A stretch of DNA of 64,000 bases from Chordicoccus furentiruminis. GTDB taxonomy: Bacteria; Bacillota; Clostridia; Lachnospirales; Lachnospiraceae. Positions 9,035 through 30,301 of this stretch are shown here, piece after piece. Numbering within the stretch: the stretch's first letter is position 1; every line of letters starts with the position of its first letter. The translations under genes and the position numbers were made by a program. The notes beneath the pieces were generated by a model. The model did not search any database. It was not told where the DNA came from and saw only the letters and a program-made list of their open reading frames with translations. The stretch is taken from positions 434,001-498,000 of the forward strand of contig NZ_CP048829.1 in NCBI RefSeq assembly GCF_019355395.1, in the 5' to 3' direction.

Positions 9035-9257
9035 GGTCTTTCTCCTCCGTTCTCGTTGGTTCATTTCCTTTTGGCATGTGTATATATACTACGAAACTAA
9101 CCCCAGCCTTTGAGGTACGTCTATATACGCTCTACAGGCAAAAACAGTCAAGAGATATTTTTAAAGACCATGTTTTACGAAAAATGGGTGCAAAAAGTTA
9201 ACCTTAACCATTTGCAAGGTTACGGTTTACCATGTAAGATAAATTTCAGAGAGATGC

Positions 9258-10508
9258 TTAAGCGGGTACAAGCTTAAATCCCAGTTTGGTGGCTTCGGAT
9301 TTCAACTTCTGCTTACGTCTCTCTTCTTGATTTTTCTTTGTTTGCTCATAATGCTCCTCGGAGTATTCCTCTCCACTCGTTAAGAGATTCCAGATAATAA
9401 CAAGCAACTTCCGTGCAACAGCGATCAATGCCTTTTTGATTCCTCTGCGTGCTTTGAGCCGGTAAAACCAGTCCCGTAAGAAGAAATTCTTGCACCGTGT
9501 AGCCGCCCACGCACATTGCACCATCACGCTTTTAATTCTTGGATTTCCCTTCGTGAGGCGTGCTGTTTTCTTCTTTTTGGCACTTTCGTTATCTCCCGGA
9601 CATAACCCAGCCCATTTGACGAGATGTCCTGCAGTTGGAAACATGGAAAGATCTGTCCCAAGTTCGGAAATAATAATCGTACTCGCACGTCTTTGAACTG
9701 CCGGAATGGTTTCAAGCAACTCTAAAGCAGGTTCGTATTTTCCAGCGTATTCGGATATGCGGTTTTCGACCTCTTCAATCTCCGAATCGCAGTTTTCTTT
9801 TACCTTTACAAGATTCTTGAGAAAAAGTCGATCGTGATCGGATAGCTGCCCGGCCACAGCAAGCTGAACATCTTCCATCTTATTCCGGAGAGTACCTTTC
9901 AAACATTCATCAACATCTGATGCCGTTAACTTTCCTTTTTCACAAAGCCTTTTTATCAACTGAATTCCGCTGACTCCGAAGATATCCGTAAGAATCGTTG
10001 AAAGTTTAAACCCGCACTGTTGCAGATATTTTTCAATCCGGTTTTTATGTCCGACCATTTCTTTTATCAGGATATCCCGGTAGCGTGTCCAGTCTCGCAG
10101 CTCTCGGATTTTTTTGGGTGGGATATAACTTGGTGCCAGGAGACCGGCCCTCAGGAGTGTTGCAATCCAGTGAGCATCTTTTATATCGGTCTTCTTGCCG
10201 GGTACATTTTTCATATGGTGCGGATTGGCGACAATGATTTTGACATTTTTCTGCTCGTCGTCATCGTAGAGAATTGATTCCAGCACGTTATAAATCGGAA
10301 ACCAATAGACTCCGGTGCTTTCCATCGCCACATGTCGACAGTTGTTCTCAATGATCCATTTCTTGAATTCATCAAGACCATTGAGCAGTGTTGGAAATTC
10401 ACGGATTTCAGGTTCTGGCTCTTCATCCAGTCTGCCTTTCAGCAGGCAGGCAACAAGAACTTCCTTGTGAACGTCCAGGCCACAACAGATGTCCAGAAGA
10501 TTTTGCAT
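9258..10508 (-). CDS. IS110 transposase (DEDD), copy 1
   Basis: 416 aa from the ATG at 10508 (MQNLLDICCGLDVHKE), chosen because GGGAGGACC precedes it; an upstream in-frame extension to 10598 has no such site. The RuvC-like DEDD domain is N-terminal (CGLDVHKE; AMESTGVYW; KKTDIKDAHWIA). The C-terminal Transposase_20 domain (ETIPAVQRRAS to RLTKGNPRIKS) includes a likely nucleophile Ser in GDNESAKKKK. IS110 enzymes recombine DNA guided by an element-encoded bridge RNA. All seven copies encode the same protein. Confidence 0.95.
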   Translation of the reverse strand: MQNLLDICCGLDVHKEVLVACLLKGRLDEEPEPEIREFPTLLNGLDEFKKWIIENNCRHVAMESTGVYWFPIYNVLESILYDDDEQKNVKIIVANPHHMKNVPGKKTDIKDAHWIATLLRAGLLAPSYIPPKKIRELRDWTRYRDILIKEMVGHKNRIEKYLQQCGFKLSTILTDIFGVSGIQLIKRLCEKGKLTASDVDECLKGTLRNKMEDVQLAVAGQLSDHDRLFLKNLVKVKENCDSEIEEVENRISEYAGKYEPALELLETIPAVQRRASTIIISELGTDLSMFPTAGHLVKWAGLCPGDNESAKKKKTARLTKGNPRIKSVMVQCAWAATRCKNFFLRDWFYRLKARRGIKKALIAVARKLLVIIWNLLTSGEEYSEEHYEQTKKNQEERRKQKLKSEATKLGFKLVPA

Positions 10509-10766
10509 AGACGGTCCTCCCTTCAAATGTGTAATTGACAGGGCGGATGTACTCCGGTGATATTGAATTATACTACGCGTGCTATTCCTGAAATGCATAG
10601 GCAGATCAGGGCGACATGTTCCTGTGCTCCAGAATACATCGAACCATGATCACTCACGATTTCTGAGAATCAGATGTATGTCGATCTTGCCCTGTATTTT
10701 CAGTATAGCGGATAAGGGCCACAGTTTCATTCCTACCTGTGAAAATCCATTTCATTGGTGATCACT
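10509..10766 (-). ncRNA. predicted IS110 bridge RNA region (copy 1; same in all copies)
   Basis: The 258 bp upstream of the transposase is the longer noncoding end, where the IS110 subgroup encodes its bridge RNA. On the minus strand a GCCCT/AGGGC stem (10689-10693 with 10715-10719) closes a 21-nt loop containing UAUACUGAAA (10698-10707). This is complementary to the minus-strand target sequence TTTCAGTATA seen at the insertion site of copies 4-6, and partly to the others. Equivalent regions are 16235-16492, 18772-19029, 23336-23593, 25040-25297, 27229-27486 and 30019-30276. RNA ends are not known. Confidence 0.55.
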
Positions 10767-10768
10767 CT

Positions 10769-10791
10769 ACTCAGGAGAAATAGCAAGTTAT
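10769..10791 (-). promoter_or_regulatory. upstream half of phage promoter element (site of IS110 copy 1)
   Basis: On the minus strand AACTTGCTATT lies 10 bp before the IS junction. The missing half, AG plus TATATATACACATGCC, is at 9072-9090 on the other side of the IS. Joined, they give a -35-like AACTTG and a -10-like TATATA with 17-bp spacing. Controls the 92-aa gene. Confidence 0.6.
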
Positions 10792-10914
10792 ATTTTCAGA
10801 TTATCCGGCCTGTTTCCAGGCATAATCTGTACAAAGATTGAAGGGTGTAATCGTGTATTTATGACGAGAAACACAGCCCCGTAAGGCTGCCTTTCCCGGT
10901 TACTTTCGTTGTCA

Positions 10915-11108: not shown

Positions 11109-11133
11109 AATGTGTAGCTGAGCATTACGGAAA

Positions 11134-11159: not shown

Positions 11160-11245
11160 GTAAATGGCCAAAACCTTTTACTATACTTCCGACCAATTTC
11201 AGAAAACAGTCTGTTTTTAAGGGATGATTCTGTATATACTCTTTC

Positions 11246-12562
11246 TTGGGCAGGAGGCATAACTGGACATTATTTTCCTGCACCATAGAAGAAAGGGTGT
11301 TATTCATGGGCAAAATATTATCCATACGAGAGTGCGTGGATGGAATTCTGACAAGCATGGAAGATATGCATTATTCCCGTTCAACAATAAAGCATTACCA
11401 ATGCTGGTACAACAGATTCCTTGAATACTGTGATGCACATAATTACGTTGCTTATTCGGAGGCTATAAGCCTTCAGTACCTTGAAGAAGTGTTTGGTGTA
11501 ACGATTGCATCATTGGCCGACAAAGATTCTTATGATAGAAGGCATCGAGAAGCTGTCCGTTTTCAGTTGTTGCTGAGTTCCTATAGCTACAATCAAACGT
11601 TCACTCAGAGATTCCACTCTGAACATAAAAGGTTACCGGGGCATGAGTACTGGAATCGCGTTTATGATCAATATCTCCATCATCTCCAAACTCTGGACTA
11701 TAAGAGAAACACTATCAATCATAAAGAATTACTTGTTCGGACATTACTTACTACTTTCATAAGCATGGGATTGAATGATTTTTCAGAGGTTGACCAAAAT
11801 GCAGTCAACAAAGCCATTTCTGATTTTATTCATTTCCAGCCAAGTGTGATAAAGAGTCGTGTTCAAGACATGCGGCAGTTCTTCGAATACTGCTATGCAA
11901 ACAGTTTGACCCAGGACAATAAATGTGTTCTAATTCCAAATATCAACACTCCGCATGTGTATCACTTGCCGACTGACATGCCTGCCGAATCAGTAAAAAA
12001 GATGCTTGAATCCATAGATCGCGCCAATACTATGGGAAAACGTGATTATGCAATTTTGCTTCTTGCCGCGAGGTTAGGTATTCGTGCAGTCGATATTGCT
12101 AATCTGCAGCTCAATGATTTAAACTGGTCAACAAATGAAATTATTCTTAAACAGGAAAAGACTTATCATACTGTGCACCTGCCGTTGTTGAATGATGTTG
12201 GATGGGCTCTTATTGACTACATTCAGCATGGTCGCCCACAAACAGAGGATAAATATATCTTTCGCTGCATGCATGCTCCATATGGAAGACTTAAGGGTTC
12301 ACAAGCTATAGAAAGCATATTTCACAGCAGAATGAACAAGGCTGGCATTAAACTGGAAACAAAATCTCAGGCGATTGGAATACATGTTCTACGTCATGCA
12401 CTTGGTCGAGTGCTGCTGGAAAAAGAGACAGATCTTCCTGTAATCAGTCAGGTAATGGGGCATCAAAGCATTAAATCAACAGAGACTTATATCCACATCG
12501 ACATGAAGGGACTTGCCCAGTGCACTCTCAATCCGGAGGAGGTGTTCCCTTATGGCGTATGA
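11246..12562 (+). CDS. RIT tyrosine recombinase A
   Basis: 438 aa; the usual start may be the internal ATG at 11306 (MGKILSIRECVDG). The catalytic domain is in the C-terminal half: ARLGIRAVDIANLQLNDL (first Arg), HVLRHALGRVL (His-x-x-Arg), GHQSIKSTETYIHID (His and Tyr nucleophile). First gene of three; its stop overlaps the start of the second by 11 bp, so the three are translated together. Such trios mobilise RIT elements. Confidence 0.88.
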   Translation: MGRRHNWTLFSCTIEERVLFMGKILSIRECVDGILTSMEDMHYSRSTIKHYQCWYNRFLEYCDAHNYVAYSEAISLQYLEEVFGVTIASLADKDSYDRRHREAVRFQLLLSSYSYNQTFTQRFHSEHKRLPGHEYWNRVYDQYLHHLQTLDYKRNTINHKELLVRTLLTTFISMGLNDFSEVDQNAVNKAISDFIHFQPSVIKSRVQDMRQFFEYCYANSLTQDNKCVLIPNINTPHVYHLPTDMPAESVKKMLESIDRANTMGKRDYAILLLAARLGIRAVDIANLQLNDLNWSTNEIILKQEKTYHTVHLPLLNDVGWALIDYIQHGRPQTEDKYIFRCMHAPYGRLKGSQAIESIFHSRMNKAGIKLETKSQAIGIHVLRHALGRVLLEKETDLPVISQVMGHQSIKSTETYIHIDMKGLAQCTLNPEEVFPYGV

Positions 12563-13508
12563 ATATAAAAGCGTTATGGCCCCTATCATAAATGATTTGA
12601 TTACCGAAAAACGCACTATAGGATTTAAATACGAATCTGCAGAAAAAGGTCTTAAAAAGCTCGACCTATACTTTCTGGAGCATGGAATAAACGAACCTGT
12701 ACTCTCTCGCGATATTGTAGATGATTTCATAGCAAAATCCCCCAATGAAACTCTCAACAACAGGAACAAACGAATTGCTGATGTCCGGGAACTTGCAAGA
12801 TATATGAACTCGCACGGGTATACCGCTTATATATATCCAGCACTGCCAAGCCGGAACTTCAGAAGCAGCTTCGTTCCTTACATTTTTACAAACGAGGAAC
12901 TGGTTGAGTTCTTTAAGGCGGTTGATAGCGATAAAGCTGAGTCCGCCATAAAATATTCTGTCATTTTCAGGCTATTATATAGCACGGGAATGCGTGTGGG
13001 TGAAGTGCTTTCACTCAAATATGGTGATATTGATTTTGAAAACGGCACTTTTTTTATCCGACAAGGCAAGAAAAACAGAGATCGTATGATTCCCGTTGAT
13101 CGAGGAATGCTCGATATTCTCCAGCAGTACATCTGTCAGAATAGAAAAGGAATCAGTACAGATGATCATGTTTTTGTAAGCCCACATCACGATTCACTAA
13201 ATCATAACGCTGTATATGATGCTTTCCGAAAGTATCTTTGGAAAGCCGGGATACACCATGGCGGTAGAAGCAAAGGGCCTCAAGTTCATAGCTTTCGTCA
13301 TACATTCTGTGTACACAAGATGCGGAACTGGGTTCTCGAAGGCCGCAGTCTTGATGCGCTCTATCCTTATATTTGTGCTTATATGGGTCATTCTGATACA
13401 AGAAGTACGGAGTACTATACCAGGCTCACAGCGGATCTGTTTCCAGATATTAGGAATAAGTGTGAAGCTTACCTTTCCGATGCAAAGGGGGATCAGAACA
13501 ATGGCTAA
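12552..13508 (+). CDS. RIT tyrosine recombinase B
   Basis: 318 aa from the ATG at 12552 (MAYEYKSVMAPIIND), with GGAGGAGGTG upstream. Phage integrase family: N-terminal SAM-like domain, then STGMRVGEVLSLKYGD, VHSFRHTFCVHKM, and MGHSDTRSTEYYTRL with the Tyr nucleophile. Overlaps recombinase C by 8 bp. Confidence 0.9.
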   Translation: MAYEYKSVMAPIINDLITEKRTIGFKYESAEKGLKKLDLYFLEHGINEPVLSRDIVDDFIAKSPNETLNNRNKRIADVRELARYMNSHGYTAYIYPALPSRNFRSSFVPYIFTNEELVEFFKAVDSDKAESAIKYSVIFRLLYSTGMRVGEVLSLKYGDIDFENGTFFIRQGKKNRDRMIPVDRGMLDILQQYICQNRKGISTDDHVFVSPHHDSLNHNAVYDAFRKYLWKAGIHHGGRSKGPQVHSFRHTFCVHKMRNWVLEGRSLDALYPYICAYMGHSDTRSTEYYTRLTADLFPDIRNKCEAYLSDAKGDQNNG

Positions 13509-14535
13509 AAGATCTGGGAAAGATTTTGACTATTATCTGACCTCATTCTTGACAAAATATCTTGCTGGTGAGCGATGTCTAAGTACCAACACCATTAAAT
13601 CTTATCGGGACACATTTAAACTATACTTGGTTTTCATGGAAACCGTGAAAGGAATTCCACACCAGAAGTTGACGCTCAATGACTTCACGCATGATAACAT
13701 AGTTGAATACTTGGATTGGCTTGATTCTAACAAAGGCATCAAGAAGTCATCTCAGAACGTACGGCTTGCTGCTATACATTCATTCGTGAAATATGTCCAG
13801 CTTGATGATCTTGACAGATTGCTTGAATACAAAAGAATTCTGTCAATCAAAAGCAAAAAACATGCATCAAGAGAGATTCCATACTTATCGAAGGATGAAT
13901 TAAAAGCATTGTTGGATGCGCCTGACACAACTACCCCGCAAGGTCGTCGAGATAAAGTGCTATTAACTGTTCTTTATGATACTGCAGCCAGGGTGAGCGA
14001 ATTAACAAACCTCACTTTGGATGATATCAGATTATCTCAGCCTGAAACGATTGCTCTAACAGGTAAAGGGGATAAAACCCGGATCGTTCCTATTATGGGA
14101 GTAACAGTTGACCTGCTCAAAAAATATATTGAAGAAAACGACCTGGTTAACCGCCGATATACTTCGCAGCATTATCTGTTCATGAGTAACCATGGTACTC
14201 GCCTCACTCGATCTGGTGTATCATACATCCTAAATAAGTATGTTACGGCTGTCAATGATTCCGGTACAGCAGATATAAAGATTTCAGTTCATCCACATAC
14301 TCTTCGACATACCAAAGCCGTCCATCTGCTGGAAGCAGGTGTGGATTTGATTTACATTAGAGATCTTCTTGGCCATATCAGCGTTACGACCACTGAGGTG
14401 TACGCAAAAGTATCCCAGGGTAATAAGCGTGAAGCATTGGAGAAAGCCTATGAAGATATTACGAATATGGATCGGAGCAGTTGGCATGAAAACTCAGATC
14501 TAATGACGTTTTTACAGAATCTCTGTAAAGAATAA
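13501..14535 (+). CDS. RIT tyrosine recombinase C
   Basis: 344 aa from the ATG at 13501 (MAKRSGKDFDYYLTSF), preceded by AAAGGGGG; an in-frame extension to 13216 overlaps recombinase B and is not likely. XerD-like: YDTAARVSELTNLTLDDI, VHPHTLRHTKAVHLLE, LLGHISVTTTEVYAKV. It ends 89 bp before the right end of the element. Confidence 0.9.
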   Translation: MAKRSGKDFDYYLTSFLTKYLAGERCLSTNTIKSYRDTFKLYLVFMETVKGIPHQKLTLNDFTHDNIVEYLDWLDSNKGIKKSSQNVRLAAIHSFVKYVQLDDLDRLLEYKRILSIKSKKHASREIPYLSKDELKALLDAPDTTTPQGRRDKVLLTVLYDTAARVSELTNLTLDDIRLSQPETIALTGKGDKTRIVPIMGVTVDLLKKYIEENDLVNRRYTSQHYLFMSNHGTRLTRSGVSYILNKYVTAVNDSGTADIKISVHPHTLRHTKAVHLLEAGVDLIYIRDLLGHISVTTTEVYAKVSQGNKREALEKAYEDITNMDRSSWHENSDLMTFLQNLCKE

Positions 14536-14761: not shown

Positions 14762-14816
14762 GGTCTTTGCCCTCCGTAATCTTTGTCGTTTGCCTTTCGG
14801 CATGTGTATATATACT

Positions 14817-16494
14817 ACGAAACTAACCCCAGCCTTTGAGGTACGTCTATATACGCTCTACAGGCAAAAACAGTCAAGAGATATTTTTAAAGACCATGTT
14901 TTACGAAAAATGGGTGCAAAAAGTTAACCTTAACCATTTGCAAGGTTACGGTTTACCATGTAAGATAAATTTCAGAGAGATGCTTAAGCGGGTACAAGCT
15001 TAAATCCCAGTTTGGTGGCTTCGGATTTCAACTTCTGCTTACGTCTCTCTTCTTGATTTTTCTTTGTTTGCTCATAATGCTCCTCGGAGTATTCCTCTCC
15101 ACTCGTTAAGAGATTCCAGATAATAACAAGCAACTTCCGTGCAACAGCGATCAATGCCTTTTTGATTCCTCTGCGTGCTTTGAGCCGGTAAAACCAGTCC
15201 CGTAAGAAGAAATTCTTGCACCGTGTAGCCGCCCACGCACATTGCACCATCACGCTTTTAATTCTTGGATTTCCCTTCGTGAGGCGTGCTGTTTTCTTCT
15301 TTTTGGCACTTTCGTTATCTCCCGGACATAACCCAGCCCATTTGACGAGATGTCCTGCAGTTGGAAACATGGAAAGATCTGTCCCAAGTTCGGAAATAAT
15401 AATCGTACTCGCACGTCTTTGAACTGCCGGAATGGTTTCAAGCAACTCTAAAGCAGGTTCGTATTTTCCAGCGTATTCGGATATGCGGTTTTCGACCTCT
15501 TCAATCTCCGAATCGCAGTTTTCTTTTACCTTTACAAGATTCTTGAGAAAAAGTCGATCGTGATCGGATAGCTGCCCGGCCACAGCAAGCTGAACATCTT
15601 CCATCTTATTCCGGAGAGTACCTTTCAAACATTCATCAACATCTGATGCCGTTAACTTTCCTTTTTCACAAAGCCTTTTTATCAACTGAATTCCGCTGAC
15701 TCCGAAGATATCCGTAAGAATCGTTGAAAGTTTAAACCCGCACTGTTGCAGATATTTTTCAATCCGGTTTTTATGTCCGACCATTTCTTTTATCAGGATA
15801 TCCCGGTAGCGTGTCCAGTCTCGCAGCTCTCGGATTTTTTTGGGTGGGATATAACTTGGTGCCAGGAGACCGGCCCTCAGGAGTGTTGCAATCCAGTGAG
15901 CATCTTTTATATCGGTCTTCTTGCCGGGTACATTTTTCATATGGTGCGGATTGGCGACAATGATTTTGACATTTTTCTGCTCGTCGTCATCGTAGAGAAT
16001 TGATTCCAGCACGTTATAAATCGGAAACCAATAGACTCCGGTGCTTTCCATCGCCACATGTCGACAGTTGTTCTCAATGATCCATTTCTTGAATTCATCA
16101 AGACCATTGAGCAGTGTTGGAAATTCACGGATTTCAGGTTCTGGCTCTTCATCCAGTCTGCCTTTCAGCAGGCAGGCAACAAGAACTTCCTTGTGAACGT
16201 CCAGGCCACAACAGATGTCCAGAAGATTTTGCATAGACGGTCCTCCCTTCAAATGTGTAATTGACAGGGCGGATGTACTCCGGTGATATTGAATTATACT
16301 ACGCGTGCTATTCCTGAAATGCATAGGCAGATCAGGGCGACATGTTCCTGTGCTCCAGAATACATCGAACCATGATCACTCACGATTTCTGAGAATCAGA
16401 TGTATGTCGATCTTGCCCTGTATTTTCAGTATAGCGGATAAGGGCCACAGTTTCATTCCTACCTGTGAAAATCCATTTCATTGGTGATCACTCT
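14817..16494 (-). mobile_element. IS110-family element, copy 2
   Basis: Same 1678-bp unit as copy 1; CT at 14815-14816 and 16493-16494. Left flank GTGTATATATA and right flank GAACCGGAATAATAGC rejoin to a phage promoter element. Confidence 0.93.
14984..16234 (-). CDS. IS110 transposase, copy 2
   Basis: 416 aa, identical in translation to copy 1, same start context (GGGAGGACC before the ATG at 16234). Confidence 0.95.
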   Translation of the reverse strand: MQNLLDICCGLDVHKEVLVACLLKGRLDEEPEPEIREFPTLLNGLDEFKKWIIENNCRHVAMESTGVYWFPIYNVLESILYDDDEQKNVKIIVANPHHMKNVPGKKTDIKDAHWIATLLRAGLLAPSYIPPKKIRELRDWTRYRDILIKEMVGHKNRIEKYLQQCGFKLSTILTDIFGVSGIQLIKRLCEKGKLTASDVDECLKGTLRNKMEDVQLAVAGQLSDHDRLFLKNLVKVKENCDSEIEEVENRISEYAGKYEPALELLETIPAVQRRASTIIISELGTDLSMFPTAGHLVKWAGLCPGDNESAKKKKTARLTKGNPRIKSVMVQCAWAATRCKNFFLRDWFYRLKARRGIKKALIAVARKLLVIIWNLLTSGEEYSEEHYEQTKKNQEERRKQKLKSEATKLGFKLVPA

Positions 16495-16517
16495 GAACCG
16501 GAATAATAGCAAGTCAA
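16495..16517 (-). promoter_or_regulatory. upstream half of phage promoter element (IS110 copy 2)
   Basis: Minus strand reads TTGACTTGCTATTATTCCGG then TTC up to the IS; the -10-like half is at 14799-14816. Would drive the gene now split by the RIT element. Confidence 0.6.
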
Positions 16518-16618
16518 TTCTGCAGATATTCCGATCATAATGTGCACAAAGATTCCGAGGCTGACATTGTGTATATACGACCAAAGGAGCCTCCCGGCTC
16601 CATGGTGTCGGCCGCCTG

Positions 16619-17300: not shown

Positions 17301-17353
17301 GGTGGAATCCTCCTCGTTTGTTTTCTCTGCCCTTCGGCATGTACATATATACT

Positions 17354-19031
17354 ACGAAACTAACCCCAGCCTTTGAGGTACGTCTATATACGCTCTACAG
17401 GCAAAAACAGTCAAGAGATATTTTTAAAGACCATGTTTTACGAAAAATGGGTGCAAAAAGTTAACCTTAACCATTTGCAAGGTTACGGTTTACCATGTAA
17501 GATAAATTTCAGAGAGATGCTTAAGCGGGTACAAGCTTAAATCCCAGTTTGGTGGCTTCGGATTTCAACTTCTGCTTACGTCTCTCTTCTTGATTTTTCT
17601 TTGTTTGCTCATAATGCTCCTCGGAGTATTCCTCTCCACTCGTTAAGAGATTCCAGATAATAACAAGCAACTTCCGTGCAACAGCGATCAATGCCTTTTT
17701 GATTCCTCTGCGTGCTTTGAGCCGGTAAAACCAGTCCCGTAAGAAGAAATTCTTGCACCGTGTAGCCGCCCACGCACATTGCACCATCACGCTTTTAATT
17801 CTTGGATTTCCCTTCGTGAGGCGTGCTGTTTTCTTCTTTTTGGCACTTTCGTTATCTCCCGGACATAACCCAGCCCATTTGACGAGATGTCCTGCAGTTG
17901 GAAACATGGAAAGATCTGTCCCAAGTTCGGAAATAATAATCGTACTCGCACGTCTTTGAACTGCCGGAATGGTTTCAAGCAACTCTAAAGCAGGTTCGTA
18001 TTTTCCAGCGTATTCGGATATGCGGTTTTCGACCTCTTCAATCTCCGAATCGCAGTTTTCTTTTACCTTTACAAGATTCTTGAGAAAAAGTCGATCGTGA
18101 TCGGATAGCTGCCCGGCCACAGCAAGCTGAACATCTTCCATCTTATTCCGGAGAGTACCTTTCAAACATTCATCAACATCTGATGCCGTTAACTTTCCTT
18201 TTTCACAAAGCCTTTTTATCAACTGAATTCCGCTGACTCCGAAGATATCCGTAAGAATCGTTGAAAGTTTAAACCCGCACTGTTGCAGATATTTTTCAAT
18301 CCGGTTTTTATGTCCGACCATTTCTTTTATCAGGATATCCCGGTAGCGTGTCCAGTCTCGCAGCTCTCGGATTTTTTTGGGTGGGATATAACTTGGTGCC
18401 AGGAGACCGGCCCTCAGGAGTGTTGCAATCCAGTGAGCATCTTTTATATCGGTCTTCTTGCCGGGTACATTTTTCATATGGTGCGGATTGGCGACAATGA
18501 TTTTGACATTTTTCTGCTCGTCGTCATCGTAGAGAATTGATTCCAGCACGTTATAAATCGGAAACCAATAGACTCCGGTGCTTTCCATCGCCACATGTCG
18601 ACAGTTGTTCTCAATGATCCATTTCTTGAATTCATCAAGACCATTGAGCAGTGTTGGAAATTCACGGATTTCAGGTTCTGGCTCTTCATCCAGTCTGCCT
18701 TTCAGCAGGCAGGCAACAAGAACTTCCTTGTGAACGTCCAGGCCACAACAGATGTCCAGAAGATTTTGCATAGACGGTCCTCCCTTCAAATGTGTAATTG
18801 ACAGGGCGGATGTACTCCGGTGATATTGAATTATACTACGCGTGCTATTCCTGAAATGCATAGGCAGATCAGGGCGACATGTTCCTGTGCTCCAGAATAC
18901 ATCGAACCATGATCACTCACGATTTCTGAGAATCAGATGTATGTCGATCTTGCCCTGTATTTTCAGTATAGCGGATAAGGGCCACAGTTTCATTCCTACC
19001 TGTGAAAATCCATTTCATTGGTGATCACTCT
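17354..19031 (-). mobile_element. IS110-family element, copy 3
   Basis: Same 1678-bp unit; CT at 17352-17353 and 19030-19031. Left flank GTACATATATA, right flank ACTCGGGGAGAATAGC. Confidence 0.93.
17521..18771 (-). CDS. IS110 transposase, copy 3
   Basis: 416 aa, identical in translation to copy 1; ATG at 18771. Confidence 0.95.
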   Translation of the reverse strand: MQNLLDICCGLDVHKEVLVACLLKGRLDEEPEPEIREFPTLLNGLDEFKKWIIENNCRHVAMESTGVYWFPIYNVLESILYDDDEQKNVKIIVANPHHMKNVPGKKTDIKDAHWIATLLRAGLLAPSYIPPKKIRELRDWTRYRDILIKEMVGHKNRIEKYLQQCGFKLSTILTDIFGVSGIQLIKRLCEKGKLTASDVDECLKGTLRNKMEDVQLAVAGQLSDHDRLFLKNLVKVKENCDSEIEEVENRISEYAGKYEPALELLETIPAVQRRASTIIISELGTDLSMFPTAGHLVKWAGLCPGDNESAKKKKTARLTKGNPRIKSVMVQCAWAATRCKNFFLRDWFYRLKARRGIKKALIAVARKLLVIIWNLLTSGEEYSEEHYEQTKKNQEERRKQKLKSEATKLGFKLVPA

Positions 19032-21855: not shown

Positions 21856-21917
21856 GGTGTTTATCTCCTTTCGGCTCTGCCGTGTGTGTTTTCCCTTTCG
21901 GTGTGTACATATATACT

Positions 21918-23595
21918 ACGAAACTAACCCCAGCCTTTGAGGTACGTCTATATACGCTCTACAGGCAAAAACAGTCAAGAGATATTTTTAAAGACCATGT
22001 TTTACGAAAAATGGGTGCAAAAAGTTAACCTTAACCATTTGCAAGGTTACGGTTTACCATGTAAGATAAATTTCAGAGAGATGCTTAAGCGGGTACAAGC
22101 TTAAATCCCAGTTTGGTGGCTTCGGATTTCAACTTCTGCTTACGTCTCTCTTCTTGATTTTTCTTTGTTTGCTCATAATGCTCCTCGGAGTATTCCTCTC
22201 CACTCGTTAAGAGATTCCAGATAATAACAAGCAACTTCCGTGCAACAGCGATCAATGCCTTTTTGATTCCTCTGCGTGCTTTGAGCCGGTAAAACCAGTC
22301 CCGTAAGAAGAAATTCTTGCACCGTGTAGCCGCCCACGCACATTGCACCATCACGCTTTTAATTCTTGGATTTCCCTTCGTGAGGCGTGCTGTTTTCTTC
22401 TTTTTGGCACTTTCGTTATCTCCCGGACATAACCCAGCCCATTTGACGAGATGTCCTGCAGTTGGAAACATGGAAAGATCTGTCCCAAGTTCGGAAATAA
22501 TAATCGTACTCGCACGTCTTTGAACTGCCGGAATGGTTTCAAGCAACTCTAAAGCAGGTTCGTATTTTCCAGCGTATTCGGATATGCGGTTTTCGACCTC
22601 TTCAATCTCCGAATCGCAGTTTTCTTTTACCTTTACAAGATTCTTGAGAAAAAGTCGATCGTGATCGGATAGCTGCCCGGCCACAGCAAGCTGAACATCT
22701 TCCATCTTATTCCGGAGAGTACCTTTCAAACATTCATCAACATCTGATGCCGTTAACTTTCCTTTTTCACAAAGCCTTTTTATCAACTGAATTCCGCTGA
22801 CTCCGAAGATATCCGTAAGAATCGTTGAAAGTTTAAACCCGCACTGTTGCAGATATTTTTCAATCCGGTTTTTATGTCCGACCATTTCTTTTATCAGGAT
22901 ATCCCGGTAGCGTGTCCAGTCTCGCAGCTCTCGGATTTTTTTGGGTGGGATATAACTTGGTGCCAGGAGACCGGCCCTCAGGAGTGTTGCAATCCAGTGA
23001 GCATCTTTTATATCGGTCTTCTTGCCGGGTACATTTTTCATATGGTGCGGATTGGCGACAATGATTTTGACATTTTTCTGCTCGTCGTCATCGTAGAGAA
23101 TTGATTCCAGCACGTTATAAATCGGAAACCAATAGACTCCGGTGCTTTCCATCGCCACATGTCGACAGTTGTTCTCAATGATCCATTTCTTGAATTCATC
23201 AAGACCATTGAGCAGTGTTGGAAATTCACGGATTTCAGGTTCTGGCTCTTCATCCAGTCTGCCTTTCAGCAGGCAGGCAACAAGAACTTCCTTGTGAACG
23301 TCCAGGCCACAACAGATGTCCAGAAGATTTTGCATAGACGGTCCTCCCTTCAAATGTGTAATTGACAGGGCGGATGTACTCCGGTGATATTGAATTATAC
23401 TACGCGTGCTATTCCTGAAATGCATAGGCAGATCAGGGCGACATGTTCCTGTGCTCCAGAATACATCGAACCATGATCACTCACGATTTCTGAGAATCAG
23501 ATGTATGTCGATCTTGCCCTGTATTTTCAGTATAGCGGATAAGGGCCACAGTTTCATTCCTACCTGTGAAAATCCATTTCATTGGTGATCACTCT
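21918..23595 (-). mobile_element. IS110-family element, copy 4
   Basis: Same 1678-bp unit; CT at 21916-21917 and 23594-23595. Its left flank is the -10-like half of the amidoligase promoter element. On the right only 26 bp separate it from copy 5. Confidence 0.93.
22085..23335 (-). CDS. IS110 transposase, copy 4
   Basis: 416 aa, identical in translation to copy 1; ATG at 23335. Confidence 0.95.
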   Translation of the reverse strand: MQNLLDICCGLDVHKEVLVACLLKGRLDEEPEPEIREFPTLLNGLDEFKKWIIENNCRHVAMESTGVYWFPIYNVLESILYDDDEQKNVKIIVANPHHMKNVPGKKTDIKDAHWIATLLRAGLLAPSYIPPKKIRELRDWTRYRDILIKEMVGHKNRIEKYLQQCGFKLSTILTDIFGVSGIQLIKRLCEKGKLTASDVDECLKGTLRNKMEDVQLAVAGQLSDHDRLFLKNLVKVKENCDSEIEEVENRISEYAGKYEPALELLETIPAVQRRASTIIISELGTDLSMFPTAGHLVKWAGLCPGDNESAKKKKTARLTKGNPRIKSVMVQCAWAATRCKNFFLRDWFYRLKARRGIKKALIAVARKLLVIIWNLLTSGEEYSEEHYEQTKKNQEERRKQKLKSEATKLGFKLVPA

Positions 23596-23621
23596 GAAAG
23601 GAGATAATAGCAAGTTATACT
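23596..23621. other. 26-bp remnant between IS110 copies 4 and 5
   Basis: GAAAGGAGATAATAGCAAGT then TATACT. Its first 23 bp equal the right flanks of copies 5 and 6 (25300-25322 and 27489-27511), so it is a truncated third copy of the same promoter flank. Confidence 0.85.
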
Positions 23622-25299
23622 ACGAAACTAACCCCAGCCTTTGAGGTACGTCTATATACGCTCTACAGGCAAAAACAGTCAAGAGATATTTTTAAAGACC
23701 ATGTTTTACGAAAAATGGGTGCAAAAAGTTAACCTTAACCATTTGCAAGGTTACGGTTTACCATGTAAGATAAATTTCAGAGAGATGCTTAAGCGGGTAC
23801 AAGCTTAAATCCCAGTTTGGTGGCTTCGGATTTCAACTTCTGCTTACGTCTCTCTTCTTGATTTTTCTTTGTTTGCTCATAATGCTCCTCGGAGTATTCC
23901 TCTCCACTCGTTAAGAGATTCCAGATAATAACAAGCAACTTCCGTGCAACAGCGATCAATGCCTTTTTGATTCCTCTGCGTGCTTTGAGCCGGTAAAACC
24001 AGTCCCGTAAGAAGAAATTCTTGCACCGTGTAGCCGCCCACGCACATTGCACCATCACGCTTTTAATTCTTGGATTTCCCTTCGTGAGGCGTGCTGTTTT
24101 CTTCTTTTTGGCACTTTCGTTATCTCCCGGACATAACCCAGCCCATTTGACGAGATGTCCTGCAGTTGGAAACATGGAAAGATCTGTCCCAAGTTCGGAA
24201 ATAATAATCGTACTCGCACGTCTTTGAACTGCCGGAATGGTTTCAAGCAACTCTAAAGCAGGTTCGTATTTTCCAGCGTATTCGGATATGCGGTTTTCGA
24301 CCTCTTCAATCTCCGAATCGCAGTTTTCTTTTACCTTTACAAGATTCTTGAGAAAAAGTCGATCGTGATCGGATAGCTGCCCGGCCACAGCAAGCTGAAC
24401 ATCTTCCATCTTATTCCGGAGAGTACCTTTCAAACATTCATCAACATCTGATGCCGTTAACTTTCCTTTTTCACAAAGCCTTTTTATCAACTGAATTCCG
24501 CTGACTCCGAAGATATCCGTAAGAATCGTTGAAAGTTTAAACCCGCACTGTTGCAGATATTTTTCAATCCGGTTTTTATGTCCGACCATTTCTTTTATCA
24601 GGATATCCCGGTAGCGTGTCCAGTCTCGCAGCTCTCGGATTTTTTTGGGTGGGATATAACTTGGTGCCAGGAGACCGGCCCTCAGGAGTGTTGCAATCCA
24701 GTGAGCATCTTTTATATCGGTCTTCTTGCCGGGTACATTTTTCATATGGTGCGGATTGGCGACAATGATTTTGACATTTTTCTGCTCGTCGTCATCGTAG
24801 AGAATTGATTCCAGCACGTTATAAATCGGAAACCAATAGACTCCGGTGCTTTCCATCGCCACATGTCGACAGTTGTTCTCAATGATCCATTTCTTGAATT
24901 CATCAAGACCATTGAGCAGTGTTGGAAATTCACGGATTTCAGGTTCTGGCTCTTCATCCAGTCTGCCTTTCAGCAGGCAGGCAACAAGAACTTCCTTGTG
25001 AACGTCCAGGCCACAACAGATGTCCAGAAGATTTTGCATAGACGGTCCTCCCTTCAAATGTGTAATTGACAGGGCGGATGTACTCCGGTGATATTGAATT
25101 ATACTACGCGTGCTATTCCTGAAATGCATAGGCAGATCAGGGCGACATGTTCCTGTGCTCCAGAATACATCGAACCATGATCACTCACGATTTCTGAGAA
25201 TCAGATGTATGTCGATCTTGCCCTGTATTTTCAGTATAGCGGATAAGGGCCACAGTTTCATTCCTACCTGTGAAAATCCATTTCATTGGTGATCACTCT
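23622..25299 (-). mobile_element. IS110-family element, copy 5
   Basis: Same 1678-bp unit; CT at 23620-23621 and 25298-25299. With the 508 bp to its right it forms a tandem duplicate of copy 6 plus 27489-27996. Confidence 0.93.
23789..25039 (-). CDS. IS110 transposase, copy 5
   Basis: 416 aa, identical in translation to copy 1; ATG at 25039. Confidence 0.95.
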   Translation of the reverse strand: MQNLLDICCGLDVHKEVLVACLLKGRLDEEPEPEIREFPTLLNGLDEFKKWIIENNCRHVAMESTGVYWFPIYNVLESILYDDDEQKNVKIIVANPHHMKNVPGKKTDIKDAHWIATLLRAGLLAPSYIPPKKIRELRDWTRYRDILIKEMVGHKNRIEKYLQQCGFKLSTILTDIFGVSGIQLIKRLCEKGKLTASDVDECLKGTLRNKMEDVQLAVAGQLSDHDRLFLKNLVKVKENCDSEIEEVENRISEYAGKYEPALELLETIPAVQRRASTIIISELGTDLSMFPTAGHLVKWAGLCPGDNESAKKKKTARLTKGNPRIKSVMVQCAWAATRCKNFFLRDWFYRLKARRGIKKALIAVARKLLVIIWNLLTSGEEYSEEHYEQTKKNQEERRKQKLKSEATKLGFKLVPA

Positions 25300-25807
25300 G
25301 AAAGGAGATAATAGCAAGTTATTTATTCAGAGAAATCGGCTATTTATCTGACAATTATCAGGGCTTATTTTGCCCCGGAAATTGGTACATTTACACCGCA
25401 TCCGGCTGGGTTTCCACTGTCGGTTCCACCGCCTGGGAAGCTGCTTTTTCTGCCCTCAGCTCCTCGCGTTTTTCCTTCTGCCGGGCTTTCCATCTCGCTT
25501 CTTCTTCCTTGGTGCGGAAAGCTGTGTGTCCGGAGAGGTTCTCCATCAGGATTTTGCGGCTGGTTTTGAACTCGTCCCCGTTCATGCCGATGCGCAGGAG
25601 CCAGATCCGGAAGGCGTATCGCTCATTGTCGTCATTGACCACCTTTGCCTGAATCCGCTTCTGTTCCAGCGCATGCTTGTTCATGAGGCAGGCGATCTGC
25701 TGGAAGGCTTTGTTCCGGTCTGCATCTTCTGTCAGAGGAAAGCCCGTGAAGCTCACTTTATCCCCTTCAAAGGAGAGTCCGGTCAGGCCACCCTGTTCCT
25801 TTACCAT
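25300..25807. repeat. 508-bp duplicated segment, copy 1
   Basis: Appears identical to 27489-27996. It contains the promoter flank and the 3' part of the 313-aa gene, ending at CTTTACCAT, where IS110 copy 6 begins (ACTACG). Created by tandem duplication of IS110 plus flank. Confidence 0.92.
25391..25807 (-). pseudogene. 3' fragment of the 313-aa phage gene
   Basis: Encodes the C-terminal 138 residues (MVKEQGGLTG to VETQPDAV) of the intact gene at 27580-28521, cut at its 5' side by IS110 copy 6. It includes the YAFRxWxLRxGxxGDEF module. There is no promoter of its own and it is probably not functional. Confidence 0.9.
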
Positions 25808-25810
25808 ACT

Positions 25811-27488
25811 ACGAAACTAACCCCAGCCTTTGAGGTACGTCTATATACGCTCTACAGGCAAAAACAGTCAAGAGATATTTTTAAAGACCATGTTTTACGA
25901 AAAATGGGTGCAAAAAGTTAACCTTAACCATTTGCAAGGTTACGGTTTACCATGTAAGATAAATTTCAGAGAGATGCTTAAGCGGGTACAAGCTTAAATC
26001 CCAGTTTGGTGGCTTCGGATTTCAACTTCTGCTTACGTCTCTCTTCTTGATTTTTCTTTGTTTGCTCATAATGCTCCTCGGAGTATTCCTCTCCACTCGT
26101 TAAGAGATTCCAGATAATAACAAGCAACTTCCGTGCAACAGCGATCAATGCCTTTTTGATTCCTCTGCGTGCTTTGAGCCGGTAAAACCAGTCCCGTAAG
26201 AAGAAATTCTTGCACCGTGTAGCCGCCCACGCACATTGCACCATCACGCTTTTAATTCTTGGATTTCCCTTCGTGAGGCGTGCTGTTTTCTTCTTTTTGG
26301 CACTTTCGTTATCTCCCGGACATAACCCAGCCCATTTGACGAGATGTCCTGCAGTTGGAAACATGGAAAGATCTGTCCCAAGTTCGGAAATAATAATCGT
26401 ACTCGCACGTCTTTGAACTGCCGGAATGGTTTCAAGCAACTCTAAAGCAGGTTCGTATTTTCCAGCGTATTCGGATATGCGGTTTTCGACCTCTTCAATC
26501 TCCGAATCGCAGTTTTCTTTTACCTTTACAAGATTCTTGAGAAAAAGTCGATCGTGATCGGATAGCTGCCCGGCCACAGCAAGCTGAACATCTTCCATCT
26601 TATTCCGGAGAGTACCTTTCAAACATTCATCAACATCTGATGCCGTTAACTTTCCTTTTTCACAAAGCCTTTTTATCAACTGAATTCCGCTGACTCCGAA
26701 GATATCCGTAAGAATCGTTGAAAGTTTAAACCCGCACTGTTGCAGATATTTTTCAATCCGGTTTTTATGTCCGACCATTTCTTTTATCAGGATATCCCGG
26801 TAGCGTGTCCAGTCTCGCAGCTCTCGGATTTTTTTGGGTGGGATATAACTTGGTGCCAGGAGACCGGCCCTCAGGAGTGTTGCAATCCAGTGAGCATCTT
26901 TTATATCGGTCTTCTTGCCGGGTACATTTTTCATATGGTGCGGATTGGCGACAATGATTTTGACATTTTTCTGCTCGTCGTCATCGTAGAGAATTGATTC
27001 CAGCACGTTATAAATCGGAAACCAATAGACTCCGGTGCTTTCCATCGCCACATGTCGACAGTTGTTCTCAATGATCCATTTCTTGAATTCATCAAGACCA
27101 TTGAGCAGTGTTGGAAATTCACGGATTTCAGGTTCTGGCTCTTCATCCAGTCTGCCTTTCAGCAGGCAGGCAACAAGAACTTCCTTGTGAACGTCCAGGC
27201 CACAACAGATGTCCAGAAGATTTTGCATAGACGGTCCTCCCTTCAAATGTGTAATTGACAGGGCGGATGTACTCCGGTGATATTGAATTATACTACGCGT
27301 GCTATTCCTGAAATGCATAGGCAGATCAGGGCGACATGTTCCTGTGCTCCAGAATACATCGAACCATGATCACTCACGATTTCTGAGAATCAGATGTATG
27401 TCGATCTTGCCCTGTATTTTCAGTATAGCGGATAAGGGCCACAGTTTCATTCCTACCTGTGAAAATCCATTTCATTGGTGATCACTCT
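25811..27488 (-). mobile_element. IS110-family element, copy 6
   Basis: Same 1678-bp unit; CT at 25809-25810 and 27487-27488. Its left flank lies inside duplicated gene sequence, not in a promoter element, so its left junction comes from the duplication/deletion event. Confidence 0.93.
25978..27228 (-). CDS. IS110 transposase, copy 6
   Basis: 416 aa, identical in translation to copy 1; ATG at 27228. Confidence 0.95.
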   Translation of the reverse strand: MQNLLDICCGLDVHKEVLVACLLKGRLDEEPEPEIREFPTLLNGLDEFKKWIIENNCRHVAMESTGVYWFPIYNVLESILYDDDEQKNVKIIVANPHHMKNVPGKKTDIKDAHWIATLLRAGLLAPSYIPPKKIRELRDWTRYRDILIKEMVGHKNRIEKYLQQCGFKLSTILTDIFGVSGIQLIKRLCEKGKLTASDVDECLKGTLRNKMEDVQLAVAGQLSDHDRLFLKNLVKVKENCDSEIEEVENRISEYAGKYEPALELLETIPAVQRRASTIIISELGTDLSMFPTAGHLVKWAGLCPGDNESAKKKKTARLTKGNPRIKSVMVQCAWAATRCKNFFLRDWFYRLKARRGIKKALIAVARKLLVIIWNLLTSGEEYSEEHYEQTKKNQEERRKQKLKSEATKLGFKLVPA

Positions 27489-27511
27489 GAAAGGAGATAA
27501 TAGCAAGTTAT
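27489..27511 (-). promoter_or_regulatory. upstream half of amidoligase promoter element (IS110 copies 4-6)
   Basis: Minus strand ATAACTTGCTATTATCTCCT then TTC before the IS. The -10-like half TATATATGTACACACCG is 5.6 kb away at 21900-21917. Repeated in part at 23596 and 25300. Confidence 0.6.
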
Positions 27512-27996
27512 TTATTCAGAGAAATCGGCTATTTATCTGACAATTATCAGGGCTTATTTTGCCCCGGAAATTGGTACATTTACACCGCATCCGGCTGGGT
27601 TTCCACTGTCGGTTCCACCGCCTGGGAAGCTGCTTTTTCTGCCCTCAGCTCCTCGCGTTTTTCCTTCTGCCGGGCTTTCCATCTCGCTTCTTCTTCCTTG
27701 GTGCGGAAAGCTGTGTGTCCGGAGAGGTTCTCCATCAGGATTTTGCGGCTGGTTTTGAACTCGTCCCCGTTCATGCCGATGCGCAGGAGCCAGATCCGGA
27801 AGGCGTATCGCTCATTGTCGTCATTGACCACCTTTGCCTGAATCCGCTTCTGTTCCAGCGCATGCTTGTTCATGAGGCAGGCGATCTGCTGGAAGGCTTT
27901 GTTCCGGTCTGCATCTTCTGTCAGAGGAAAGCCCGTGAAGCTCACTTTATCCCCTTCAAAGGAGAGTCCGGTCAGGCCACCCTGTTCCTTTACCAT
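27489..27996. repeat. 508-bp duplicated segment, copy 2 (parental)
   Basis: Parental copy of 25300-25807: here the gene continues past CTTTACCAT into GGAGATG, so this is the original arrangement. Confidence 0.92.
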
Positions 27997-28521
27997 GGAG
28001 ATGAAATCCGTCGCCGAGGTAATCACTCCAGCGTCATCGAGCGCCGTGATCAGGTCCTTGTCCACGCTGAACTGTCCGCCAGTGGATTTAGAAAGCAGCG
28101 GTCCCCGGCTGTAGATCAGGTTGACCAGTCGGCGAAGGGAATCTGCCGTGTGCCTTGCCATGGGCAGGCTGACCGTCAGCGTGTCCGCTTCCGTGTTTTC
28201 TTCTGCAGGCACCGGCTCAGTTGCTTCTGCTTCCTGTTCTTCCACAGCCGCCTCCGCTGTCGCCGCTTCGATAACGGTTTCCATTCTGTCCTCCTCCCGG
28301 ATGCCTTCCAGAATCAGGCCATCGGAGAGCAGTGTCTGGATGATTGTTTCATCCAGATCCGCCTCTTCCACAACCAGGTCGCCCCGGCGCTCTACCGTGT
28401 ACACTCCGATCTCATACGCGCATCTGGGCATAAAGGTGTAGCGCGGCTGCAGCCCGGTCAGCTCGCCGATTCGCTTCACCAACGTCTTCTTATCCTCTAC
28501 ATTCAGGCCAAATCTCATCAT
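27580..28521 (-). CDS. phage protein with amidoligase-shared C-terminal module, 313 aa
   Basis: Not recognised over its length. Residues 1-80 form an alpha/beta part (MMRFGLNVEDKKTLVKRIGE). Residues 80-115 are an Ala/Glu-rich linker. Residues 115-235 form a second domain (LTVSLPMARHTADSLRRLVN, then a helical CLMNKHALEQKR region). Near residues 240-275 comes RYAFRIWLLRIGMNGDEF, matching the amidoligase C-terminus (about 20 of 36 aligned residues identical). A Lys/Glu-rich tail ends the protein. Alone in its operon, behind the promoter occupied by IS110 copy 7. A partner or substrate of the amidoligase is possible. Confidence 0.7.
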   Translation of the reverse strand: MMRFGLNVEDKKTLVKRIGELTGLQPRYTFMPRCAYEIGVYTVERRGDLVVEEADLDETIIQTLLSDGLILEGIREEDRMETVIEAATAEAAVEEQEAEATEPVPAEENTEADTLTVSLPMARHTADSLRRLVNLIYSRGPLLSKSTGGQFSVDKDLITALDDAGVITSATDFISMVKEQGGLTGLSFEGDKVSFTGFPLTEDADRNKAFQQIACLMNKHALEQKRIQAKVVNDDNERYAFRIWLLRIGMNGDEFKTSRKILMENLSGHTAFRTKEEEARWKARQKEKREELRAEKAASQAVEPTVETQPDAV

Positions 28522-28600
28522 AATTCTTTTCCTTTCCGGAGCCTTGCTCCCATTGTGATCTCTACCATCCGTTTTCCTTCGACGGTATGGTATACATACT

Positions 28601-30278
28601 ACGAAACTAACCCCAGCCTTTGAGGTACGTCTATATACGCTCTACAGGCAAAAACAGTCAAGAGATATTTTTAAAGACCATGTTTTACGAAAAATGGGTG
28701 CAAAAAGTTAACCTTAACCATTTGCAAGGTTACGGTTTACCATGTAAGATAAATTTCAGAGAGATGCTTAAGCGGGTACAAGCTTAAATCCCAGTTTGGT
28801 GGCTTCGGATTTCAACTTCTGCTTACGTCTCTCTTCTTGATTTTTCTTTGTTTGCTCATAATGCTCCTCGGAGTATTCCTCTCCACTCGTTAAGAGATTC
28901 CAGATAATAACAAGCAACTTCCGTGCAACAGCGATCAATGCCTTTTTGATTCCTCTGCGTGCTTTGAGCCGGTAAAACCAGTCCCGTAAGAAGAAATTCT
29001 TGCACCGTGTAGCCGCCCACGCACATTGCACCATCACGCTTTTAATTCTTGGATTTCCCTTCGTGAGGCGTGCTGTTTTCTTCTTTTTGGCACTTTCGTT
29101 ATCTCCCGGACATAACCCAGCCCATTTGACGAGATGTCCTGCAGTTGGAAACATGGAAAGATCTGTCCCAAGTTCGGAAATAATAATCGTACTCGCACGT
29201 CTTTGAACTGCCGGAATGGTTTCAAGCAACTCTAAAGCAGGTTCGTATTTTCCAGCGTATTCGGATATGCGGTTTTCGACCTCTTCAATCTCCGAATCGC
29301 AGTTTTCTTTTACCTTTACAAGATTCTTGAGAAAAAGTCGATCGTGATCGGATAGCTGCCCGGCCACAGCAAGCTGAACATCTTCCATCTTATTCCGGAG
29401 AGTACCTTTCAAACATTCATCAACATCTGATGCCGTTAACTTTCCTTTTTCACAAAGCCTTTTTATCAACTGAATTCCGCTGACTCCGAAGATATCCGTA
29501 AGAATCGTTGAAAGTTTAAACCCGCACTGTTGCAGATATTTTTCAATCCGGTTTTTATGTCCGACCATTTCTTTTATCAGGATATCCCGGTAGCGTGTCC
29601 AGTCTCGCAGCTCTCGGATTTTTTTGGGTGGGATATAACTTGGTGCCAGGAGACCGGCCCTCAGGAGTGTTGCAATCCAGTGAGCATCTTTTATATCGGT
29701 CTTCTTGCCGGGTACATTTTTCATATGGTGCGGATTGGCGACAATGATTTTGACATTTTTCTGCTCGTCGTCATCGTAGAGAATTGATTCCAGCACGTTA
29801 TAAATCGGAAACCAATAGACTCCGGTGCTTTCCATCGCCACATGTCGACAGTTGTTCTCAATGATCCATTTCTTGAATTCATCAAGACCATTGAGCAGTG
29901 TTGGAAATTCACGGATTTCAGGTTCTGGCTCTTCATCCAGTCTGCCTTTCAGCAGGCAGGCAACAAGAACTTCCTTGTGAACGTCCAGGCCACAACAGAT
30001 GTCCAGAAGATTTTGCATAGACGGTCCTCCCTTCAAATGTGTAATTGACAGGGCGGATGTACTCCGGTGATATTGAATTATACTACGCGTGCTATTCCTG
30101 AAATGCATAGGCAGATCAGGGCGACATGTTCCTGTGCTCCAGAATACATCGAACCATGATCACTCACGATTTCTGAGAATCAGATGTATGTCGATCTTGC
30201 CCTGTATTTTCAGTATAGCGGATAAGGGCCACAGTTTCATTCCTACCTGTGAAAATCCATTTCATTGGTGATCACTCT
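28601..30278 (-). mobile_element. IS110-family element, copy 7
   Basis: Same 1678-bp unit; CT at 28599-28600 and 30277-30278. Left flank TATGGTATACATA, right flank GAAGCCCCAAAAAGTAAAG. Confidence 0.93.
28768..30018 (-). CDS. IS110 transposase, copy 7
   Basis: 416 aa, identical in translation to copy 1; ATG at 30018. Confidence 0.95.
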   Translation of the reverse strand: MQNLLDICCGLDVHKEVLVACLLKGRLDEEPEPEIREFPTLLNGLDEFKKWIIENNCRHVAMESTGVYWFPIYNVLESILYDDDEQKNVKIIVANPHHMKNVPGKKTDIKDAHWIATLLRAGLLAPSYIPPKKIRELRDWTRYRDILIKEMVGHKNRIEKYLQQCGFKLSTILTDIFGVSGIQLIKRLCEKGKLTASDVDECLKGTLRNKMEDVQLAVAGQLSDHDRLFLKNLVKVKENCDSEIEEVENRISEYAGKYEPALELLETIPAVQRRASTIIISELGTDLSMFPTAGHLVKWAGLCPGDNESAKKKKTARLTKGNPRIKSVMVQCAWAATRCKNFFLRDWFYRLKARRGIKKALIAVARKLLVIIWNLLTSGEEYSEEHYEQTKKNQEERRKQKLKSEATKLGFKLVPA

Positions 30279-30301
30279 GAAGCCCCAAAAAGTAAAGTCA
30301 T
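30279..30301 (-). promoter_or_regulatory. upstream half of phage promoter element (IS110 copy 7)
   Basis: The most diverged of the five: minus strand ATGACTTTACTTTTTGGGGC then TTC before the IS; the -10-like half TATGTATACC is at 28583-28600. Drives the 313-aa gene. Confidence 0.5.

Follow-up and report, generated by a model that had tools for sequence, protein, structure and literature searches.

Insertion sequences (IS) of the IS110 family are RNA-guided elements that often insert in repeats. The IS110 element described here occurs in seven copies in a 64,000-nucleotide (nt) stretch of the Chordicoccus furentiruminis genome (contig NZ_CP048829.1, positions 434,001 to 498,000 of the forward strand; hereafter the window), where it interrupts a promoter-like sequence repeated in a prophage. 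The element is filed in the IS110 family only, its group (IS110 versus IS1111) being left open. IS621 and the IS110-group bridge RNA elements (PMC11208160) share with it the recombinase domains, a long left non-coding end, a core dinucleotide at either flank, a repetitive target, an RNA upstream of the recombinase and, within this RNA (predicted in our case), letters matching target and donor. In the same account IS621 has a CT core and a repetitive extragenic palindromic (REP) target, unlike the AT core, the phage promoter-like target and the reversed predicted guide order found here. The seekRNA elements ISEc11 and ISEc21 of the IS1111/IS110 type (PMC11187229) are comparable in their short matches to both target strands and in re-targeting between cousins, and IS1111 elements also place the top-strand complement first in their guide order; they differ in that our predicted RNA lies upstream of the recombinase and that no long subterminal inverted repeats are visible by eye. 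As with the REP-targeting ISPsy8, ISPa11, ISPpu9 and ISPpu10 (PMC1525189), a single IS has settled in numerous copies of the same dispersed repeat, but the repeat is here a gene-facing, phage promoter-like element, and each insertion hits regulation. Within the open-licence literature of PubMed Central, searched through titles and the beginnings of abstracts, no IS110 element aimed at a phage promoter is described. The element belongs to a known family and stands out by the unusual class of its target, by its AT core and possibly by its guide order, and its apparent guided insertion is well supported. To our knowledge, a CT core is not defining for the IS110 family as a whole.

The arrangement is very probably the outcome of a recent burst of a single bridge-RNA (seekRNA)-guided IS110 with a guide for AGAGTG-AT-RTAT, which forms the −10 side of a repeated phage promoter. 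Four observations made directly on the DNA carry this reading, namely the identity of the copies, the empty sites in relatives, the AT core and the presence of the same target in other viral contigs. The seven window copies, each of 1,673 bp, are identical, lie on the minus strand between two AT dinucleotides and occupy five loci. Searching the entire 3.27-Mb genome, a single contig, at the DNA level gave nine full-length copies with 100% identity and nothing further; two of the nine are tandem duplicates, leaving seven independent loci, and two lie outside the window, at ~383.5 kb and ~410.9 kb of the genome. Copy 1 (9088–10760, between AT cores at 9086–9087 and 10761–10762), identical to the eight others, encodes a 416-residue recombinase (9258–10508, minus strand) with both IS110 domains, DEDD_Tnp_IS110 (PF01548; 4.5e-25, 88.7 bits, cut-off 29) and Transposase_20 (PF02371; 6.1e-20, 71.8 bits, cut-off 21.3). 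Its start was set at 10508 rather than at the listed open reading frame (ORF) start at 10598, because GGGAGG precedes it and an aligned ATG is present in two cousin elements, L085 and L086 (L numbers are our handles for fetched loci). The non-coding DNA measures 252 nt on the 5′ side of the recombinase gene, the left end, versus 170 nt on the other side.

Relatives of the prophage were found among viral contigs through the amidoligase gene adjoining copy 4, which gave 79 loci. In related phages the landing element is uninterrupted and reads (A/G)ACTTGCTATT-N10-AGAGTG-AT-ATAT. In the closest of them, L005, L021 and L029, an uninterrupted GACTTGCTATT-N10-AGAGTGATATATGTACA lies upstream of the amidoligase gene, at the place homologous to the copy 4 site. 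BLAST comparison with five relatives shows the copy 4 flanks side by side in L005 and L029 and the copy 7 flanks side by side in L005; for copies 1 and 2, no contiguous empty site is present among these five. The initial annotation, made from the window alone, had joined the flanks of the copies on the assumption that they are contiguous without the IS, and at copies 4 and 7 the relatives bear this out. It had placed the exchanged core at an AG (CT) dinucleotide. Since the three uninterrupted relatives read AGAGTG-AT-ATAT, the core is instead AT, at 7/7 window copies, an empty X-AT-Y becoming X-AT-IS-AT-Y, and the AGAGTG beside the IS left end belongs to the target. Comparison of empty with occupied sites shows no target duplication beyond the shared core, one AT giving AT-IS-AT. 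The 'AGT' before TATATA belongs to the IS right end, and the sequence 'AGTATATA' joined in the initial annotation mixes IS and target letters. Because it includes letters of the IS end, the joined motif, as we worded it for searching, occurs nowhere: patterns allowing ≤3 mismatches gave 0 matches in window and genome, and an exact IUPAC pattern gave 0 in the viral collection. The corrected motif, unlike this version, is found in relatives and in genomes of the family: allowing ≤2 mismatches, the pattern occurs 29 times in 15/299 family genomes, the reversed control giving 0 in every row.

A motif model was trained on the 76 distinct uninterrupted sites present in the related viral loci (training scores 23.8–66.9, median 52.5). 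The joined window sites of copies 1, 2, 3, 4–6 and 7 score 51.1, 59.9, 54.2, 59.3 and 26.1, all within the training range, and the five reconstructions are indeed the same kind of element, as first proposed; the joined sites of the two copies outside the window score 51.4 (L002) and 31.3 (L001). The copy 7 site is a degenerate member, because its score of 26.1 lies near the training minimum of 23.8 and well under the median. Equally consistent with the initial description, every window IS lies at the same point of the element and in the same orientation, and no uninterrupted copy of the element was found in the window. The genomic left halves read AGAGTGAT in 7/7 cases, with right halves ATAT (5) or GTAT (2), and the leader half alone has 4 occurrences versus 0.00 expected. 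None of the nine genomic copies (0/9) lies at an unrelated sequence.

All sites are on the minus strand. Copy 1 separates the −35 side of site P1 (ACTTGCTATT-N10-AGAGTG-AT, 10761–10792) from its −10/leader side (9067–9087). Copy 2 (14814–16486) lies between the −35 side (16487–16518) and the −10/leader side (14793–14813) of P2, and copy 3 (17351–19023) between those of P3 (19024–19055 and 17330–17350). Site P4, with its −10/leader side at 21894–21914 and its −35 side at 27481–27512, the latter duplicated at 23588–23619 and 25292–25323, encloses copies 4 (21915–23587), 5 (23619–25291) and 6 (25808–27480). Copy 7 (28598–30270), whose empty site is contiguous in L005, splits P7 into a degenerate −35 side (30271–30302) and a −10/leader side with the right half GTAT (28577–28597, low coordinate set by eye).

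Two of the copies at P4 arose by tandem duplication. Copy 4 is followed by 31 nt, copy 5, 516 nt and copy 6, the duplicated units being IS + 31 nt and IS + 516 nt of right flank. The spacers, at 23588–23618 and 25292–25807, reproduce the right flanks of copies 5 and 6 exactly (31/31 and 516/516 letters) and end in the AT core. Because both breakpoints fall exactly at the IS end plus core, we propose either that the recombinase linked the right end of the IS to AT sites close by, or that transient insertions in the vicinity recombined between sister chromosomes. The 516-nt duplication has produced a 138-residue fragment ORF, a second copy of the amidoligase-like gene's 3′ end. The two flanks of copy 3 match two different promoter copies of L005 that are ~2.9 kb apart (BLAST against the window), and its site may for this reason be the product of IS–IS recombination or of a difference in gene content.

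The element precedes genes in a directional manner. Where the sequence continues for 300 nt or more from the site, an ATG-started ORF (50 residues or more, with a Shine–Dalgarno-like stretch) begins within 200 nt downstream in 91/94 cases, at a median distance of 47 nt, versus 10/94 in the opposite direction. The bias persists when each distinct sequence is counted once (74/75 downstream versus 8/75 in reverse) and for sites with 300 nt on both sides (88/91 versus 10/91). In the prophage, P1 is followed by an Nmad4-domain gene and then by terminase, portal, protease and major capsid genes, P4 by the amidoligase gene (20896–21855) with cyclotransferase genes, P7 by a second amidoligase-like gene (27580–28521), and the site near 411 kb by an endolysin gene. 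From this arrangement we infer a promoter of phage genes, whose boxes, judged by eye, do not fit textbook sigma-70 spacing. The motif occurs at gene starts up to five times per fetched locus (L054), and also in L061, L063, L076 and other related loci, where it could define a regulon of related phages.

The same IS occupies the same target outside this genome. Scanning the viral collection with both IS ends returned five stretches for each end, from two metagenomes (3300026522 and 3300011989). The left flanks end in AGAGTGAT in 5/5 cases, bringing the total of exact left halves to 12/12 (7 genomic and 5 viral); the −35-like half is clear in four and degenerate in L132, as at copy 7. The right flanks, also 5/5, start with AT followed by ATAT (2), GTAT (2) or GAAT (1), then a leader and a gene. 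L134 has both IS ends, and a left and a right contig from the same sample could represent the two sides of one insertion. At least five further insertion sites are represented (four distinct left flanks in one sample and L134), or six with L139. Among these contigs, L137 has one ATAT site occupied and three TAAT-type copies empty, two of which deviate from AGAGTG, and the single TAAT copy of L140 is empty.

Within the genome, occupancy also follows the right half of the target. The motif-model scan covered the window, L003, L004 and L119–L123, the remaining genome being covered by patterns, so that degenerate members may be missed. On this basis, all promoter copies found with the right half RTAT are occupied (7/7), and two with other right halves are empty. 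AGAGTGATNNAT is uninterrupted four times genome-wide, with right halves GAAT, TAAT, ATAT and CAAT. The GAAT site (407656), the one promoter copy of this prophage found empty, lies ahead of three adjacent large serine recombinase genes (L122:5855–9589, genome ~403.9–407.6 kb), each with Resolvase and Recombinase domains. The TAAT site (2506144) is a promoter copy ahead of a further amidoligase gene outside the prophage (L120 around 9624, genome 2506124), and the CAAT site (2947713) lies within a 718-residue ORF without a Pfam match. A Fisher table of 12 occupied right halves versus 7 empty promoter copies, drawn from the genome and the IS-bearing contigs, gives p = 0.0017; this value is exploratory, the table having been set up after seeing the data, with the empty ATAT (1341147) and coding CAAT (2947713) sites left out and with the two deviating left halves of L137 counted among the empty copies. 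A strict requirement for an RTAT right half is contradicted by an occupied GAAT site in L139. The initial statement that all copies are occupied holds for the RTAT right halves found in this genome and not for the variants GAAT and TAAT, nor for the one AGAGTGATATAT inside a cas10-like gene. Downstream of the IS copy at 383.5 kb lies a 762-residue ORF with helix-turn-helix and PRiA4_ORF3 domains (L121:4958–7246).

The left non-coding end (10509–10760, minus strand, 252 nt) is the predicted source of a bridge RNA or seekRNA that would pair with the target. The putative left target guide GAGUGAU (IS positions 106–112; 10649–10655, minus strand) has the same letters as the target left half plus core; as GAGTGAT, it is the best core-anchored match to the twelve left halves in the left end, a 7-mer match reached by 12 of 300 shuffles and by 144 of 5000. 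The candidate right target guide is ACAUACAU (IS 80–87; 10674–10681, minus strand), complementary to the top strand AT-GTATGT; the corresponding ACATACAT is the best complement of the twelve right halves over all positions, an 8-mer reached by 10 of 300 shuffles. Scanning all four combinations of side and strand for target guides, only left-same (7-mer 12/300 and 8-mer 41/300 shuffles) and right-complement (8-mer 10/300 and 7-mer 42/300) stand out. The IS right end plus core recurs within the left end as CGTAGTAT at IS 184–191, which is reached by 9 of 5000 shuffles and marks the predicted left donor guide CGUAGUAU (10570–10577, minus strand). The left target and left donor matches are reached jointly by 0 of 5000 shuffles. 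No right donor guide was identified among the matches in the predicted RNA. Judged by eye, the site at 383.5 kb (AGAGTG-AT-GTATGT) fits the predicted guides best.

Cousin elements show co-variation on the left side. L085 (76% protein identity) combines a different left flank, CATATGAT, with AGATGAT at the position of the guide, and its left donor guide co-changes, the donor GTAATAT recurring in its predicted RNA; L086 has the guide GAGTGAT and the flank AGAGTGAT. In L089, a more distant element, the letters of its right end likewise recur at the corresponding place (by eye). A consensus fold of three sequences contains 46 pairs, in 12 of which both partners have changed. Another candidate right target guide, AUGUAU (IS 122–127), pairs with the targets via wobbles and was dropped, because it lies within a helix with compensatory changes and the all-position scan favours ACAUACAU at IS 80–87. 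Searched against Rfam at gathering thresholds, the window contains no RNA family. The guide order is likely reversed, with the top-strand complement first.

The insertions separate the −35-like from the −10-like box, and the IS itself carries a promoter-like sequence at its right end. In copy 1 this sequence, CTTGACT...AGAGCGTATATAG (9121–9152, minus strand), has its TATATA ending 34 nt from the IS end, and CTTGACT...AGAGCGTATATAGACGTACC faces outward, towards the phage gene. With one base deleted, its phage-model score is 21.6, versus 0.2 for the best of 100 tail shuffles (which preserve base composition only) and −0.1 for the best of 97 host DNA windows, the model allowing one shift of up to 2 bases. 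A general sigma-70 scan did not list the outward sequence, returning 3 sites versus 3.4 expected. In the cousin L085, the corresponding position is taken by a TTGACT...TATATG pair with a phage-model score of −11.2, below that of the best host window, so the likeness to the phage element is particular to the present IS. IS110 circles are reported to form a promoter reading into the left end (PMC11208160). The outward sequence could also serve the phage gene, and the phage genes may have been re-promotered by the IS right end. The initial view that all genes lost their promoter geometry accordingly needs dividing: it is right for the original element, and the IS right end brings an outward promoter-like sequence of its own.

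On the reading of a guided burst, the IS110 guide would recognize AGAGTG-AT-RTAT on the −10 side of a promoter that recurs across a group of phages and prophages, and transposition would proceed through a circular element recombining at the AT core of each promoter copy. Insertion would always leave the recombinase gene oriented like the phage gene, the −35-like and −10-like boxes would be split at every well-matching copy found in the genome, and the outward promoter-like sequence might now drive the phage genes. The description of the repeats as a landing array for the IS is upheld in so far as a repeated phage promoter-like element is a specific landing site matched by letters of the IS left end; its status as a promoter is itself deduced from its position before genes. 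More speculatively, and rather improbably in our estimate, the IS is doubly tuned to the phage, its guide RNA targeting the regulon promoter and its right end carrying a near-copy of it with the target letters spoiled, which reads AGAGCG-TATATAG instead of AGAGTGATATATAG. Were this so, transcription from the near-copy promoter would enter the guide RNA and recombinase gene in the circle and, after insertion, the phage gene; the activator of the phage regulon would trigger transposition at the very time when phage targets become numerous, and every insertion would supply a substitute for the promoter it breaks, making an RNA-guided transposon wired into the gene-expression programme of the phage.

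Several observations weigh against a guided burst or against parts of it. The element is found in 46/79 related loci (≤4 mismatches) and is not universal in the group. The GAAT site of L139 is occupied (only 27 letters of the IS are present, 26 of them identical), and L138 has an ATAT promoter copy that is empty, as is the perfect target AGAGTGATATAT at 1341147. The right target guide is only moderately significant, the guide order (right at IS 80–87 before left at IS 106–112) is the reverse of that of the IS110 group, and the RNA comparison is based on three sequences. Right-side covariation is absent: the right guide of L085 itself fits its target no better than the window guide does (by eye), and the right flank of L086 lies past its contig end. 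Two alternatives would do without guidance. The promoter copies are alike, copies 5 and 6 are clear tandem duplications and the copy 3 flanks come from two L005 promoter copies, all of which would suit a spread of the IS by homologous recombination or gene conversion without guided transposition; the promoter repeats have, however, only ~40 bp in common (by eye), and in other viral contigs the same IS occupies an identical base position in leaders that differ, just as it occupies the diverged sites P7 and P8 (26.1 and 31.3 in the motif model), which makes such a spread highly improbable. A recombinase that prefers AT-rich or melted promoter DNA without RNA guidance is more improbable still. 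It would account for the AT-rich −10-like box beside every insertion, but not for twelve exact AGAGTGAT left halves with matching letters in the IS, nor for TAAT promoter variants that are empty in the genome, L137 and L140 while occupancy tracks the right half in the exploratory Fisher table.

Two further explanations could act in addition to guidance. The IS might land at all matching sites and persist only in expendable prophage DNA. This survivor bias is a possible but doubtful contributor: the sole uninterrupted AGAGTGATNTAT in the genome does lie within a 790-residue ORF with Cas10/Csm1 domains, yet such bias accounts for the absence of the IS elsewhere and not for the target match, and one such site leaves little room for it. 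The ORF (L119:7903–10275, genome ~1339.4–1341.8 kb) has Cas10/Csm1 domains as in type III CRISPR systems. Selection by the host, which would have kept the insertions as silencers of lysis and capsid genes of a dangerous prophage, we hold to be slightly more doubtful; interrupted promoters precede the terminase, portal and capsid genes at P1 and the endolysin gene near 411 kb, but the IS right end supplies an outward promoter-like sequence and the same IS resides in contigs classed as viral.

If guidance to this target is correct, the target being a shared regulatory element of a phage group, the choice of guide RNA bears directly on phage gene control. Occupied versus spared promoter variants would form a natural multi-site test of guide–target rules, and the insertions a possible route for rewiring or disarming prophages. 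The presence of the same IS in the same switch of other viral sequences suggests a transposon specialized on the gene switches of a virus. The conserved promoter-like motif could also be used to find co-regulated genes in related phages.

The surroundings of the prophage sites are rich in other recombinase and transposase genes. Between P1 and P2, three adjacent tyrosine recombinase genes (11246–14535, plus strand), with a Phage_integrase domain in each, resemble a recombinase-in-trio element. At 36374–37858 and 57147–58631, both on the minus strand, lie two genes for DDE transposases of 494 residues with equal Pfam scores. Further transposases (rve type, DDE and IS91-like Y2) are found between 46 and 56 kb of the window, a region dense in mobile elements.

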